Origin: Marivirga sericea
GTDB taxonomy: Bacteria > Bacteroidota > Bacteroidia > Cytophagales > Cyclobacteriaceae
Direction of reading: 5' to 3'
Length of the DNA: 64,000 nucleotides
Assembly: GCF_900177665.1 (NCBI RefSeq)
Contig: NZ_FXAW01000005.1
Location: 372,001-436,000, forward strand
Position 1 is the first letter of the stretch, and every line of letters starts with the position of its first letter. The position numbers were made by a program, and so were the translations under genes. Shown here in pieces: positions 379 to 5,884 of the stretch. The notes under the pieces were generated by a model that saw only the letters and a program-made list of their open reading frames with translations, was not told the DNA's origin and did not search any database.

Positions 379-2916
379 TTAAACTAACTCTTCAATCAAT
401 TTTTCATTTCGCTCAAAAATCCCTTCCTCCACATTCAACTTTTTCCACTTTAATTCTCCATCATATATATCAGTGACCTCTCCTTCATCATTCATAGCCA
501 TTAAAAAAATCCAGCGATTATCGCAAAGTTCTCGCACTGAATCATGCTTTTCCAACATCTGTATCATGGCTTCTTTTGGTGCATTAATTACTACACTTAA
601 TCTTAATGGTTCGTGTTGATAGTTTACCCCGTCATATATGGATTGCATCGGTAATCCTGATCTTAAATCTCCTGCAAACCCTTCCAATACTCCCACTCCT
701 GAGGTCACATTATGCAATGTCTTATTACCTGACCCAAAATGTTTGTTATCTACTGTTGAAGCATAATATTGTAGGTTTATCCAACTGGTTACAATCATAG
801 GTGCAGTCATGATTGCCTCTAAAACTGCAAATCCTTTATCATCTTTCCAATTATAAGAATGCAAGAAGGAGCGTCCCTCTAAATTCAACCCACGGGTAAT
901 GGTTCGCGGGGCCACCACAAACGAAGAACAACCTGCAAGTCCCCATTCCGGTCTAATCTGCGACCAATCATTGCTTCTTGACCGAACAAAAGAATCAATA
1001 TCCCCATCACCTTCCATACTCATTCTCAAAACTCTTTCTGCCCGTGCGGATTTACCAGCCTGACGAATTCTTTGCTTGATGTTTTCTAAATCTTCTTGAT
1101 GAGAATCAGGAACTAAATCTGTATTGAAGAGTGATACTTCATCCGTAGTGGTGTCATGCAAACAAGCAAGAAAATAAGTTGTATCTGGAATAAAAATGTT
1201 ATCTATTGCCAACTGCCTCCTTACTTCTTTATCATTTAATATAACGGAAGCTACTTTTGCATTAGCTTCTCCTGATTGTCCTGCGCAGGCTCCACAATCC
1301 AATCCGGAAGCATGTGGATTATTTACTGAAGTGGATCCATGTCCAACAATCATGATCATGCGAGCAAAATTATTCGTTAAGGACATAGCTTGCAATGCTC
1401 CTTTAGCCATATTCACTCGATCGGCCAAGGGAATTCCCGTGATCTGTCCCCCATTCTGACGACTTTCAATGTCAACAGATAAATTTTCAATTTCCTTTTT
1501 ACTTAGCCCATTGTGTTGTGGATGTGGAACGGGTCTTGTAATCCCGAATGAATCCGTAAAAAGTTTAGGAAGTAATGAGAGACCAACAGGGCTCACAAAA
1601 CCAAACGAAGTTATAGCGCTAGATTTGAAAGATTTCCAAGCAAAACTGAAAGCCCTGTTAAGCTTTCTTCTTAAAATCACTTTTTCGTTTTGGTTCTGAT
1701 CATCTATCTTTTCTAACACCTTATATCCTGAAGGTATTAAAGCCGGGCATTGATCGTATCCATCATCATGTCCAACTTTCACAAAATTGATTGGAAAGCC
1801 AAAGAAGCCAGCAAACCCTAAGGTTTCGAATTCTGGTGCTACCGACTCCAAATTCCTGCGGTACACTTCCGAACGAACATCAATACAGAAAACTGCTTGA
1901 ACTTTACACTTTATATTTTCTTGATTAGATTGAACTTTTACTTTAAATTTTCCGGTTAATTTTCTTTGAGCAGATAAATCATAGGCTTCTTGCAAAATAA
2001 GTAAATCTGAAATTGCCGAATTGCTACCTTCAGAAAAACCCTTTTTGATCATCTCCTCTTTTGCAATCTTCCACTGACTTTCCAACACTGGATTTTTCAA
2101 AGCATTGAAAATTCCATATTCCCAACACACCAAAATAGACAAAAACTCACTTACCAATTCCTCTTCTCTTCCATATCTATTGCTATCCCAATCGAAATGA
2201 GCAATATAGGAAGACCAACCCCCGACTCTTAGAAGTAAACTATGCAGGTAAATAGGAAGTGCTTCTTCATCGAGACCCAAACTATCGATTGCGATTTTCG
2301 CGGCCTCGGTAGGATTATCAGGTAATTCAGTGATCAACTGATGAAATCCCTTAAGACCCATTAAAGAAGGTGACCTGTTCGTTTCAGCTTCTATTTTCCA
2401 TGCAGAAAACAAACTTAACTGATGCTTATCTTTTTTCCATTGGCTTTGAGCCTGATCAAAATAAGATGATGCCCATGATGAGATACAATCAAGCATAAAA
2501 TCCGGCCAGTTGGCCGAGCTAATTTTCCTTGCTACCTCTGCAACCGTATTAACTTTAGGAGTCTTTACTTTTTCAAAATCCTTCGATTTTAAATCCCTGA
2601 TAAAAGAAGGAGCATCATCATACTCAATTGTCTTATTCTTTGCTAATACTATTTCTATGTCCTCTAGCAATAATTTGTTTTCTTGAATTGCTTTTAGATA
2701 GTAATCTCGTGGCATGGTCGTCTGAATGCCCGCCTGAAAAGACAATTGCCGGGCAATTGATTCAAAAGAATGCCCACTAAGCCCCAAGTATGGATTAACT
2801 GCTACAAAATTCTCCAATGGCCAGAGAGGAGCAATTTTCTTTGCAGCAGTATGTAAAGCCTGGGCCATTTTTTCATTAGTAAAAATTATTTCAGAAGTAT
2901 TGATACTATTTGACAT
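379..2916 (-). CDS. dabA: Inorganic carbon transporter subunit DabA (DUF2309)
   Basis: DabA is the cytoplasmic, zinc-binding, beta-carbonic-anhydrase-like subunit of the DAB system. It is proposed to hydrate CO2 vectorially to bicarbonate, energised by the membrane partner DabB. The 845-residue protein has the family length. It shows the expected metal site: C344 and D346 in the FCIDVRSE motif, then H526 (VGHGS) and C541 (LDCGACAG), with the same 15-residue His-Cys spacing known for the characterised protein. I start at the ATG at 2914-2916; a TTG two codons upstream is in frame but less likely. It is the last gene of the operon, 59 nt after dabB. The family assignment is firm; activity in this organism is inferred. 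Confidence 0.93.
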   Translation of the reverse strand: MSNSINTSEIIFTNEKMAQALHTAAKKIAPLWPLENFVAVNPYLGLSGHSFESIARQLSFQAGIQTTMPRDYYLKAIQENKLLLEDIEIVLAKNKTIEYDDAPSFIRDLKSKDFEKVKTPKVNTVAEVARKISSANWPDFMLDCISSWASSYFDQAQSQWKKDKHQLSLFSAWKIEAETNRSPSLMGLKGFHQLITELPDNPTEAAKIAIDSLGLDEEALPIYLHSLLLRVGGWSSYIAHFDWDSNRYGREEELVSEFLSILVCWEYGIFNALKNPVLESQWKIAKEEMIKKGFSEGSNSAISDLLILQEAYDLSAQRKLTGKFKVKVQSNQENIKCKVQAVFCIDVRSEVYRRNLESVAPEFETLGFAGFFGFPINFVKVGHDDGYDQCPALIPSGYKVLEKIDDQNQNEKVILRRKLNRAFSFAWKSFKSSAITSFGFVSPVGLSLLPKLFTDSFGITRPVPHPQHNGLSKKEIENLSVDIESRQNGGQITGIPLADRVNMAKGALQAMSLTNNFARMIMIVGHGSTSVNNPHASGLDCGACAGQSGEANAKVASVILNDKEVRRQLAIDNIFIPDTTYFLACLHDTTTDEVSLFNTDLVPDSHQEDLENIKQRIRQAGKSARAERVLRMSMEGDGDIDSFVRSRSNDWSQIRPEWGLAGCSSFVVAPRTITRGLNLEGRSFLHSYNWKDDKGFAVLEAIMTAPMIVTSWINLQYYASTVDNKHFGSGNKTLHNVTSGVGVLEGFAGDLRSGLPMQSIYDGVNYQHEPLRLSVVINAPKEAMIQMLEKHDSVRELCDNRWIFLMAMNDEGEVTDIYDGELKWKKLNVEEGIFERNEKLIEELV

Positions 2917-2975
2917 TATCAATTGTTTTTTTACACAAAATTTGATTGCAATAAATATTTAGTAAATAACTTACC

Positions 2976-4583
2976 CTAATCATATCTCTTTATTAGATCG
3001 GACTCTTCTTTAGAAGTCTTGACATATAAAGCACCCACTAGACGATCAAATAGCACATTAGCATATAACCCATTCCGAAAATGGATTGACCACCTTTGCC
3101 AGATATCTTTATTCTTAAGCATAGGAGCAAAGATTTGAATGAGGACCAATCCTCCAAAAATAATCAGCCAAAAGAAGAGCAAAATAGTAACTGCGGTAGA
3201 TGGCTGGCTAATAGCAGGTATTTGAGATTTCAAAATAGTGCCCATTAGCGTTTCGAGACTAAAAAACGCTAAAGCAACGAGAGTGGCCATTGCTACCACC
3301 CTTGAAATCAACTTTCTTCCTGCGGAAGAATCAAAAGCAGTACCTATCAATAAAGATAAGCCCATTACTATTATGCAGCTAATAACCAGCAGTGACAATT
3401 CTTCAATGGGATTGACTCCCCAGAGATATGCCAAGCCACTAAAAATTGTAAAAGCCAAAATAATACTTATGATTAGAACAATCGGATTAGCCGTTCTCTT
3501 TGGTAAAGAAATTTTTGATGCTTTCTTAACATCTATAAAGCTTCCTGATGAAAGAAAAGCATGTGCTTTATAAAAAGAATGAGCAACCAAATGCAACATA
3601 GCTGCGGCGTATATTCCAAACCCACATAGCAGCAAACTAAAACCCATGTGCGAGATACTGGAATAGCCCAAGGCTGTTTTAACGGAAGACTGCGTCATGT
3701 AAGCAATCGAACCAAAAATAGCTGTGAATCCTCCGAACACGATCAACAAAATGGGTGCAGAAGTTGACTCCATCATGACAAATGACATTCTGGCTACTAA
3801 AAATGGCCCAGCATTCAATAGACCAGCATGCAACAAGGCAGAAACAGGTGTTGGAGTCTCCATTACTTCTACTAGCCATGCATGGGTGGGAAACAAGGCT
3901 GATTTCAAGATGGCCGCAAGAGCAATAAGTGCTGCAGCGATTTCGATAGAGGGATCTAAAGCATTAGGGCTACTTTTAAGCCCGGAGAATATTTCTTGCA
4001 AATTACCTGTTCCAAAGTGATTATATAATAGAACTATTGCTCCTAATAAAAATAAATCGCTCAATCGAGCAGCTATGAACTTCTTCCTAGCAGCTAATTT
4101 AGATCTTCGTCTTCCCGAATAGAATAAGAGCAGTCGATGCAAAGATATGCTTGTTAAAACCCAGGCTATCCATAGCATTCCTAAATTGCCTGCAAGCACT
4201 AATAATTGTACCGAGGCAATAGTAGCAGCAAGTCTTCCTATAAAGACTCCTTGTCTATTGTCTCCATCCATATAGTTAAAACTAAACCTCATCACTATAA
4301 AACTGATCAGATTAATCATACTGAAAATCAGCACGCTTAGTGAATCCAGTCTAATTGAAAATCCCAGATTATTAAAATCATAACTTTGGCTTTCCAACAA
4401 ACCAAATTGATAAACAATCACAACACTGATTAAGGCTACTATTATGGCCAAATAACTGGAAATTCGACTCACTCGAATCAAGTTATGGGGCCTTAAACCA
4501 CGGATAAACCAAGATAAGATAGCGATAACCACGAATAACAAGGGAGAAACTAAAACCGATATTGTAAATAGATCTGTGGTCAT
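2976..4583 (-). CDS. dabB: DAB carbon-uptake membrane subunit DabB (NuoL-like proton channel)
   Basis: A 535-residue polytopic membrane protein of the proton-conducting transporter family (NADH:quinone oxidoreductase subunit 5/MrpA-like, PF00361). The core has many hydrophobic helices and the conserved pattern LFPTHAWLVEVMETPTPVSA, with buried Lys, His and Glu residues that carry protons in this family. Next to a DUF2309 gene and far from any nuo genes, it is best read as DabB. It would couple cation or proton entry to DabA-driven CO2 hydration. The ATG at 4581-4583 lies 10 nt downstream of the preceding small gene, so the genes are cotranscribed. Automated pipelines often label this protein NADH dehydrogenase subunit L. 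Confidence 0.9.
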   Translation of the reverse strand: MTTDLFTISVLVSPLLFVVIAILSWFIRGLRPHNLIRVSRISSYLAIIVALISVVIVYQFGLLESQSYDFNNLGFSIRLDSLSVLIFSMINLISFIVMRFSFNYMDGDNRQGVFIGRLAATIASVQLLVLAGNLGMLWIAWVLTSISLHRLLLFYSGRRRSKLAARKKFIAARLSDLFLLGAIVLLYNHFGTGNLQEIFSGLKSSPNALDPSIEIAAALIALAAILKSALFPTHAWLVEVMETPTPVSALLHAGLLNAGPFLVARMSFVMMESTSAPILLIVFGGFTAIFGSIAYMTQSSVKTALGYSSISHMGFSLLLCGFGIYAAAMLHLVAHSFYKAHAFLSSGSFIDVKKASKISLPKRTANPIVLIISIILAFTIFSGLAYLWGVNPIEELSLLVISCIIVMGLSLLIGTAFDSSAGRKLISRVVAMATLVALAFFSLETLMGTILKSQIPAISQPSTAVTILLFFWLIIFGGLVLIQIFAPMLKNKDIWQRWSIHFRNGLYANVLFDRLVGALYVKTSKEESDLIKRYD

Positions 4584-4593
4584 TTTAACAGTA

Positions 4594-4881
4594 TTATTTT
4601 AATTCGAGAGTTATAGTTGAATTGATTTTTACCGTTTTACCAGCTGCTTTAGCAGCATCAATGATAGCTAACATCTTTTCTCTACTTTCTTTCAATTCTT
4701 CAATTCGCTTTATTGAGTTTTCATCGACTTTGCCAAGTCTTTCTTTAGAACTAAAATCCTTTAAATTGTGAAAATTGATTTTTTGAATTATCAGGTTTGA
4801 AACAATTTCTCGCGCATCTTCTGCAGAATATTCGCCTCTTACTAAAGCTTCAGTTTGCTTATTCACTAATACTTGTTCCAT
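4594..4881 (-). CDS. Small helical protein, first gene of the dab operon
   Basis: A 95-residue soluble protein from the ATG at 4879-4881 (a TTG four codons earlier is also in frame). It has no signal peptide, no membrane helix and no cysteine. It is rich in Glu, Lys and Ala and predicted mostly helical, with charged segments around EYSAEDAREIV and KRIEELKESREKML. I do not recognise a family. Only 10 nt separate it from dabB, and it lies directly behind the divergent regulator, so it is likely coregulated. A role as assembly or regulatory partner of DabA/DabB is inference from position only. Confidence 0.75.
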   Translation of the reverse strand: MEQVLVNKQTEALVRGEYSAEDAREIVSNLIIQKINFHNLKDFSSKERLGKVDENSIKRIEELKESREKMLAIIDAAKAAGKTVKINSTITLELK

Positions 4882-4987
4882 AATAAATGACAATGTTTAA
4901 TGTTTTTAAAATTTATTTCTACAAATTTGCGAAACATTATTCATATATTTTTATTTATATGTTTTATACAAATCATAAACTATTATT
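4882..4987. promoter_or_regulatory. Divergent control region between dab operon and its LysR regulator
   Basis: This 106-nt, extremely AT-rich gap separates two divergent starts, the usual place for a LysR operator that controls both the regulator and its target operon. It contains stretches such as TTTATATG and TTTTATACAAA, but I could not single out a convincing operator or a pair of promoters, so the call rests on gene arrangement. Confidence 0.4.
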
Positions 4988-5884
4988 ATGAACTATACTA
5001 TACATCAATTAAAGATATTTCTGAAAGTGGTACAGCACGAGAGCATTACAAAAGCATCCGTAGAACTTTTTATGTCACAACCAGCTGTTTCTATCCAACT
5101 AAAAAACTTTCAAGATCAATTCGATATATCCTTATATGAAATTGTAAACAGAAGATTGCATGTCACTGATTTCGGGAAAGAAATAGCCTTGATTGCAGAA
5201 AGAGTAATAGAAGAACTAAATAATATCAATTACAAAACAGAAGCCTACAATGGCATGCTGACAGGAAAACTTAAAATATCCTGTGCTTCTACTGGCAAAT
5301 ACGTTGTTCCATTTTTTCTTGAAGGATTCTTATCGAAAAATTCTGGTATAGATTTACTTCTAGATGTCACCAACAAAAGTAAAGTGATTCAAAGTTTGAA
5401 AGACAATGAAATAGATTTTGCCTTAGTCAGTGTATTACCTGATTTACTAGACGTTGAAGAAGAACTGTTAATAGATAATAAATTATACCTGATAAGCAAT
5501 CAAGAGAGTCATAGTGAATTAAAGCCACTCATCTATAGAGAAGAAGGATCAGCTACAAGAAGTGCCATGGAACATTACTATGGAACTCACAATTCCAACT
5601 ATCGTAAGAAACTAGAATTGACATCAAATGAAGCTGTAAAGCAAGCTGTTATCGCAGGATTAGGTAATTCTATAATGCCACTAATTGGCATAAAAAATGA
5701 ATTGCTAGATAAGCAATTGTTTATTTTACCTTCAAAGGATTTACCTGTAAAAACAAAATGGAGATTAATTTGGCTTAAGGGCAAAAGAATGTCTCCAGTT
5801 TCCCAAGCGTACTTAGACTTTATCAGGTTAAATAAAAATGAAATTCTCGATCAGAACTTTAAATGGTATCAGAACTTTAAGTAA
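4988..5884 (+). CDS. LysR-type transcriptional regulator (CbbR/CysB-like)
   Basis: A 298-residue LysR regulator. Residues ~1-60 form the winged helix-turn-helix with the signature ASVELFMSQPAVSIQLKNFQ. Residues ~90-290 form the periplasmic-binding-like effector domain. It is transcribed away from the dab operon across a 106-nt gap, so control of carbon uptake, analogous to CbbR/CcmR control of CO2-responsive genes, is a reasonable inference. The 3' end carries a 12-bp direct repeat (5851-5862 and 5869-5880) that encodes QNFK twice, which looks like a small tandem duplication lengthening the C-terminus. The ATG at 4988 gives the standard N-terminus of the family. Confidence 0.88.
   Translation: MNYTIHQLKIFLKVVQHESITKASVELFMSQPAVSIQLKNFQDQFDISLYEIVNRRLHVTDFGKEIALIAERVIEELNNINYKTEAYNGMLTGKLKISCASTGKYVVPFFLEGFLSKNSGIDLLLDVTNKSKVIQSLKDNEIDFALVSVLPDLLDVEEELLIDNKLYLISNQESHSELKPLIYREEGSATRSAMEHYYGTHNSNYRKKLELTSNEAVKQAVIAGLGNSIMPLIGIKNELLDKQLFILPSKDLPVKTKWRLIWLKGKRMSPVSQAYLDFIRLNKNEILDQNFKWYQNFK

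Follow-up and report, generated by a model that had tools for sequence, protein, structure and literature searches.

BicP, a small protein encoded beside DAB, SbtA and isocitrate dehydrogenase genes, as a candidate control protein for inorganic-carbon supply in heterotrophic Bacteroidota

How do heterotrophic bacteria control their supply of bicarbonate? To our knowledge little is known of this, and work on the control of inorganic-carbon (Ci) uptake has mostly concerned cyanobacteria and chemoautotrophs. Here we analyze a 64,000-nucleotide stretch of the Marivirga sericea genome (assembly GCF_900177665.1, contig NZ_FXAW01000005.1, positions 372,001 to 436,000; hereafter the window), and within it an operon that encodes DabB and DabA, the two subunits of a DAB-type complex, behind a gene for a 95-residue protein. 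We call this protein BicP, a label coined in this analysis. The BicP family is not tied to DAB; it is shared with loci that encode the Ci transporter SbtA and with loci that encode isocitrate dehydrogenase (IDH), and its linkage to all three is strong. We tentatively propose that BicP works as a soluble adaptor or control protein in the Ci supply of heterotrophic Bacteroidota, comparable in role to SbtB but not a PII protein.

Results

The small gene and its family

The BicP gene (positions 4594 to 4881, minus strand, ATG at 4881) heads the operon, and 10 nt (4584–4593) separate its stop codon from the dabB ATG. The original prediction, made from the window's letters alone, had placed an unassignable 95-residue protein at exactly this spacing. 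Its gene and position are borne out: homologs occur in relatives, and across four congeneric genomes codon position 3 differs in 33–48% of cases versus 8–26% at positions 1 and 2, an excess that makes BicP look like a real coding gene.

Family members were collected by BicP sequence alone, ignoring neighbors, from relatives (at least 14 of 59 genomes positive), from the phylum (at least 30 of 395) and from GTDB genomes (26 loci); in the first two sets a negative genome is not a firm absence. Deduplication left 70 loci, and in 69 of them BicP was called. This count omits L098, L112 and L115 (from the same genomes as L025, L070 and L067), the short duplicates L001–L017 and L033–L062, and L117, in which the small gene is masked by an overlapping open reading frame (ORF); it retains the near-copies L109/L110, L102/L104/L111 and L075/L076, the degenerate L093 and the weak L031 (E 0.005). 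Neighbors were identified with Pfam for representatives and by BLAST to those for the remaining loci.

Within 5 kb of BicP we find a LysR-type regulator gene at 52 of the 69 loci, SbtA at 33, IDH at 21 and DAB at 18, followed by DUF6671 (14), Sua5 (11), carbonic anhydrase or a Pro_CA-related ORF (7) and SulP (2). DAB or SbtA is present at 51 loci and at least one of DAB, SbtA and IDH at 66, while DAB and SbtA occur together at none; a same-strand run joins BicP with DAB, SbtA or IDH at 60. By chance, a random site in a 4.7-Mb genome with one DAB and one SbtA locus would fall within 5 kb of either about 0.5% of the time. Sua5 uses bicarbonate, and together with beta-carbonic anhydrase, the Pro_CA-related ORF and the SulP permease it makes a set of neighbors that fits bicarbonate chemistry. 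The M. sericea genome itself encodes a second BicP, 35% identical to the first, whose gene stops 6 nt short of an SbtA gene (PF05982, E 3e-112). Thus, two transporter types built of unrelated proteins use the BicP family, even within one genome, which argues against a partner-specific structural part.

In a tree of 89 members (100 columns, low resolution), each member was labeled by the partner in its whole fetched region, DAB taking precedence over SbtA and SbtA over IDH. The labels are clustered, with 7 changes for DAB versus 16.6 in shuffles and 20 for SbtA versus 29.7. The starred branches force at least one change for DAB, at least four for SbtA and at least four for IDH, so that some switching between SbtA and IDH partners appears supported, whereas repeated switching to DAB is only suggested.

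Several arrangements recur around the family. One Bacteroidota cluster, variably complete, runs LysR / IDH - BicP - DUF6671 - Sua5 - (carbonic anhydrase or amidohydrolase) - SbtA (L106, L112–L114, L108, L245, L253, L255 and others). We know of no function for DUF6671; its model (pLDDT 72) gave a single Foldseek match below 0.001, YjjX, which superposed poorly and was not used. Paired close BicP genes of an 80-aa and a 95-aa type stand mostly after IDH (L109, L110, L116, L071, L242, L246, L251). Unassigned small proteins of 71–97 aa with hydrophobic stretches, judged by eye to be possible membrane partners, are encoded between LysR and BicP (L032:6465–6758, L167:5802–6086, L092:6377–6625, L096:5781–6026, L106:5793–6008). 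Mutually similar ORFs of 164–186 aa occur in four BicP loci (L082:6318–6875, L088:6456–7016, L091:6307–6855, L099:7124–7618); since the L099 ORF scores 27.4 bits against Pro_CA, barely above the cut-off of 25.7, these may be diverged beta-carbonic anhydrases. Finally, L100 places BicP about 1.3 kb from an SbtA gene in a metagenome-assembled genome of Pyrinomonadaceae (Acidobacteriota), by transfer or binning error.

SbtA genes rarely neighbor both BicP and a PII-like gene

SbtA was found in 90 of the 395 phylum genomes, and 95 copies were examined, leaving out four places (G439:C11, G278:C1, G194:C8, G345:C93). With a PII-like gene counted within 800 nt and BicP within 5 kb, 59 copies have the PII-like gene alone, 14 have BicP alone, one has both and 21 have neither (Fisher P 1.3e-6). 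SbtA with an SbtB-type, PII-like gene close by is common in the phylum (60 of the 95 copies; L140–L176 and others). These genes were labeled by eye first and then checked against Pfam and the PDB: nine of ten tested match Pfam P-II, the exception being a 97-aa ORF after SbtA in L254, and of two types compared with the PDB one is closest to the Thermus-type hypothetical protein TTHA0516 and then to SbtB, the other to a P-II protein and then to SbtB. PII-like genes and BicP follow lineages, so the comparison was repeated within the window's class, where SbtA is present in 82 of 325 genomes; at 40 of about 73 new places (contig ends and part of the rest were left out), BicP occurs at 12, a PII-like gene at 9, both at none and neither at 19 (chance of no overlap, 0.025). 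The exclusion trend holds within the class, if weakly.

DAB loci with and without BicP

The original prediction had suggested that the small protein, if kept with dab operons, would be a candidate accessory subunit or regulator, and that its absence from other Bacteroidota dab operons would count against this. DabA occurs in 30 of the 395 phylum genomes (31 matches), of which 30 places were examined and a fragment in G199 was set aside. BicP lies within 5 kb at 10 of these 30 loci; at the other 20 it was not found, the best profile match in the 12-kb regions having E 0.71. The small gene recurs with Bacteroidota dab operons, which made the suggested subunit or regulator a good lead, but it was not found at most of the loci examined, so that the refuting condition applies in part. 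Nor is it tied to these operons, since SbtA is its commoner partner and IDH is a partner too. Among the ten positive loci, BicP is only divergent in G434, lies beyond DUF6671 and Sua5 in G316 and is degenerate in G253. In ten of the 20 BicP-less loci the order is reversed, dabA preceding dabB, and SulP is often a neighbor. The absence from 20 of 30 loci means that BicP is not required for DAB as such and, with its presence at SbtA and IDH, speaks for a general Ci control or helper protein rather than an obligate DAB subunit. We also observed DabA-DabB-SulP clusters that start with DabA and lack the small gene (L131–L133, L136, L138), a different DAB type beside the SulP permease.

BicP is predicted to be a soluble hairpin unlike PII

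An AlphaFold2 model of BicP, built from a 28-member alignment (mean pLDDT 91.9, pTM 0.74), predicts a strand (8–18), two helices (20–49 and 54–79) and a second strand (84–93). The protein had been called helical; the two long helices agree with that description, which missed the two predicted flanking strands. K34, H38 and R59 are invariant across the 28 members, and the highest 19-residue Kyte-Doolittle mean is 0.62, so that no membrane-like stretch is present.

That the protein could not be assigned proved correct. BicP alone has no Pfam match above cut-off and no NCBIfam match at all, and no convincing hit in Pfam, NCBIfam or the PDB came from profile searches, whether these used the single protein or alignments of 13 or 28 members. 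The family's scattered hits are mutually unrelated and were rejected, since neighboring genes give no backing to the two best, the MbpA mobilization protein (NCBIfam, E 0.00062; matched by 5 of the 28 members with E no higher than 1) and DUF7809 (E 0.0013; one member). Foldseek with the model returned nothing at E ≤ 0.001. The VIA-align 2 best rows (Z 7.3–8.7) are helical hairpins of unrelated proteins and uninformative on function, and absence from that search proves nothing. A profile of SbtB-type proteins, built from PII-like genes beside SbtA, did not match any of 75 BicP sequences (best E 0.062; window protein 0.9). Likewise, the predicted strand-helix-helix-strand fold is not the ferredoxin-like fold of PII, which SbtB is described as having (PMC10117731). 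Searches of open-licence literature on DAB, SbtA/SbtB and MpsAB/DUF2309, on DUF6671 and on bicarbonate transport in Bacteroidetes returned no paper whose title or abstract describes the family, which is not proof of absence.

The DAB genes and carbon metabolism of the genome

Downstream of BicP on the minus strand, dabB (2976–4583) encodes a 535-aa transmembrane, proton-channel-like subunit (PF00361, E 2.8e-43) and the adjacent dabA (379–2916) an 845-aa beta-carbonic-anhydrase-like subunit (PF10070, E 1.1e-254). Alignment to DabA2 of DAB2 (PDB 9rd0, E 4.1e-167) shows an intact zinc site, as the original prediction had stated: C344, D346, R348, H526 and C541 align in that order with the DabA2 zinc-site residues C351, D353, R355, H524 and C539 given in PMC13144422. 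The operon thus has both marks of DAB, a DabA with its zinc site and DabB encoded next to it, and by homology to DAB2 the pair would form an energy-driven CO2/HCO3- uptake complex.

A whole-genome search did not find a RuBisCO large subunit; the genome encodes PEP carboxylase and two beta-carbonic anhydrases, a set that fits a heterotroph. Since RuBisCO is absent and PEP carboxylase present, the imported carbon probably feeds anaplerotic and biosynthetic carboxylations, the anaplerotic use having been suggested in the original prediction.

A CbbR-like LysR and a shared intergenic element

Divergent from the operon lies a gene not mentioned in the original prediction, which encodes a 298-aa, CbbR-like regulator of the LysR type (4988–5884, plus strand; HTH_1, PF00126, 53.4 bits against a cut-off of 26.6; LysR_substrate, PF03466, 99.1 bits against 28). 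Among NCBIfam families it matches CbbR (NF045990) best, but its 148 bits fall short of the curated cut-off of 450. We compared 71 distinct intergenic regions between LysR and its target. The dyad CATA-N9-TATG occurs in 37 of them versus 0.35 expected from shuffles; in the window a dyad-like stretch (4974–4990, no strand assigned) overlaps the LysR start codon, and one of its half-sites includes bases of that codon. A conserved A/T-rich element (4940–4962, minus strand; consensus AAATATAAATAAAAATTTATGAA) lies beside it. Its 15-nt form, AAATATAAATAAAAA, is found with at most three mismatches in 51 of the 71 intergenics versus 21.9 expected; in 45 of these 51 it begins at the same distance, exactly 25 nt, from the LysR start. 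The fixed position is the strong part of this result, not the raw count, because the stretch is A/T-rich; related genomes are also not independent. Sorted by first target gene, the element is present before BicP in 24 of 30, DabB in 3 of 3, IDH in 15 of 25, other ORFs in 8 of 9, carbonic anhydrase in 1 of 2 and SbtA in 0 of 2. That operons differing in cargo share an element at a fixed position speaks for a single orthologous LysR regulon; the element is likely the LysR operator and the dyad the LysR recognition site. In the M. sericea genome the consensus (at most three mismatches) matches the LysR intergenic and two other places. We take both of these to be chance: as read here, the first overlaps a PII-like gene at its start and the second lies near the start of a methyltransferase gene.

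Discussion

What might BicP do? We propose that the CbbR-like LysR would switch on the operon when CO2/HCO3- is short, on the precedent of CbbR and NdhR, and that DabA and DabB would import carbon as DAB2 is proposed to do, by CO2 hydration driven by the membrane potential (PMC13144422). BicP would then act on the uptake system, or relay a carbon-status signal to it, as the PII-like SbtB does on SbtA, which it regulates and whose activity it is reported to lower when both are expressed in E. coli (PMC10117731). It may work on whichever Ci system or carbon enzyme shares its locus; in this genome one copy would serve with DAB and the second with SbtA. That BicP stands beside Ci transporters and is rare where a PII-like gene is present suggests equivalent work, and carbon status is suggested as the signal by its link to IDH, whose products include CO2 and 2-oxoglutarate. 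The latter is described as a high-CO2 signal to transcription factors, mainly NdhR, in cyanobacteria (PMC10117731). The analysis shows the gene and its family, its linkage, the rarity of PII-like genes beside it at SbtA and the shared intergenic element, whereas the biochemical mechanism is inferred, including putative direct binding, a putative ligand, and activation, inhibition or assembly as the outcome.

Several observations weigh against this proposal. Three of the 69 loci have no DAB, SbtA or IDH within 5 kb: in L026 BicP adjoins molybdenum-cofactor-like genes (ORFs read by eye), and L103 and L105 have LysR only. IDH-side BicP without a nearby Ci transporter is not explained by a pure transporter regulator. 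G133 and G168, two genomes from the same family as the window, have LysR-dabB-dabA operons that lack BicP, and 21 of 95 SbtA copies in the phylum and 19 of 40 in the class have neither BicP nor a PII-like gene nearby, so BicP is dispensable in some lineages. The SbtA-linked paralog in M. sericea (L018) has no LysR within 5 kb, no element, and no dyad even under relaxed matching. Finally, lineages differ in how often they carry PII-like genes or BicP, which deprives the exclusion counts of independence, and the set contains many near-copy loci.

The IDH loci invite a different explanation, in which BicP is a metabolic-status protein centered on IDH and 2-oxoglutarate/CO2 that modulates IDH or senses its product, transporter operons carrying copies so that uptake follows the same signal. 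Several of the 21 loci with IDH within 5 kb lack a Ci transporter in the vicinity, and IDH genes can be followed by a shorter BicP of about 80 aa, in some cases together with a tandem copy of the 95-aa type. IDH is divergent from LysR in 25 of the 71 intergenics, and the 2-oxoglutarate signaling through NdhR cited above (PMC10117731) would be a precedent. Yet 48 of the 69 loci, and the window operon itself, have no IDH in reach, and we consider this explanation unlikely. We hold it somewhat less likely still that BicP is an assembly or stability factor of membrane-bound Ci transporters: a small soluble helical hairpin that often heads its gene run and is common to two different transporters would suit such a role, but BicP also stands next to soluble IDH and at loci without a transporter, and many DAB and SbtA loci do without it.

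With LysR within 5 kb at 52 of the 69 loci, often divergent, BicP might instead bind LysR and pass the carbon signal to transcription. The 17 loci that lack LysR in that range, the SbtA-linked paralog L018 among them, and the LysR genes that precede DAB without BicP at L126 and L129 make this improbable. Least probable, in our judgment, is the DAB-specific third subunit put forward in the original prediction, because the family is commoner with SbtA (33 of 69) than with DAB (18 of 69) and is missing from 20 of 30 DabA loci; in its favor are the 10-nt spacing to dabB and the order LysR, small gene, dabB, dabA that recurs in related genomes.

The proposed control protein for Ci supply can be set against known systems. 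The window operon resembles DAB/DAC complexes such as DAB2 of Halothiobacillus neapolitanus in both subunits and the zinc-site residues, and differs in being headed by BicP. DAB1 has a small third protein, hneap_0908, which according to PMC13144422 is transmembrane, whereas BicP has no such hydrophobic stretch. As with SbtB, the BicP gene is about 100 codons long and commonly has a Ci transporter for a neighbor (DAB or SbtA at 51 of 69 loci), and BicP and a PII-like gene rarely share one SbtA. It differs from SbtB in its predicted two-stranded hairpin in place of the PII ferredoxin-like fold, in matching no SbtB-type profile, in standing mostly before rather than after the transporter gene, and in occurring also with DAB and IDH. 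The regulator is divergently encoded and matches CbbR best, like LysR proteins of the CbbR/NdhR type; unlike these, it falls under the CbbR cut-off, belongs to a genome without RuBisCO, and has orthologs paired divergently with either IDH or Ci uptake operons. Staphylococcal MpsABC is a DAB-type system in a heterotroph with an adjacent hypothetical protein, but MpsC lies downstream and, according to PMC8552792, does not function as part of the operon.

The recurrence of BicP with DAB, SbtA, carbonic anhydrase, Sua5 and IDH, and its rarity at PII-partnered SbtA, offer a handle on the control of bicarbonate in heterotrophs. The protein could also matter for the engineering of bicarbonate uptake; work on bicarbonate uptake in plant chloroplasts reportedly discusses such transporters (PMC8438413). 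A broader possibility, which we put forward yet more cautiously than the role of BicP itself, is that BicP represents an undescribed, non-PII carbon-status family, a common control module of DAB, SbtA, perhaps SulP, and IDH in heterotrophic Bacteroidota. Under the control of a single CbbR-like LysR operator, this module would form a bicarbonate-homeostasis regulon outside the autotrophs.

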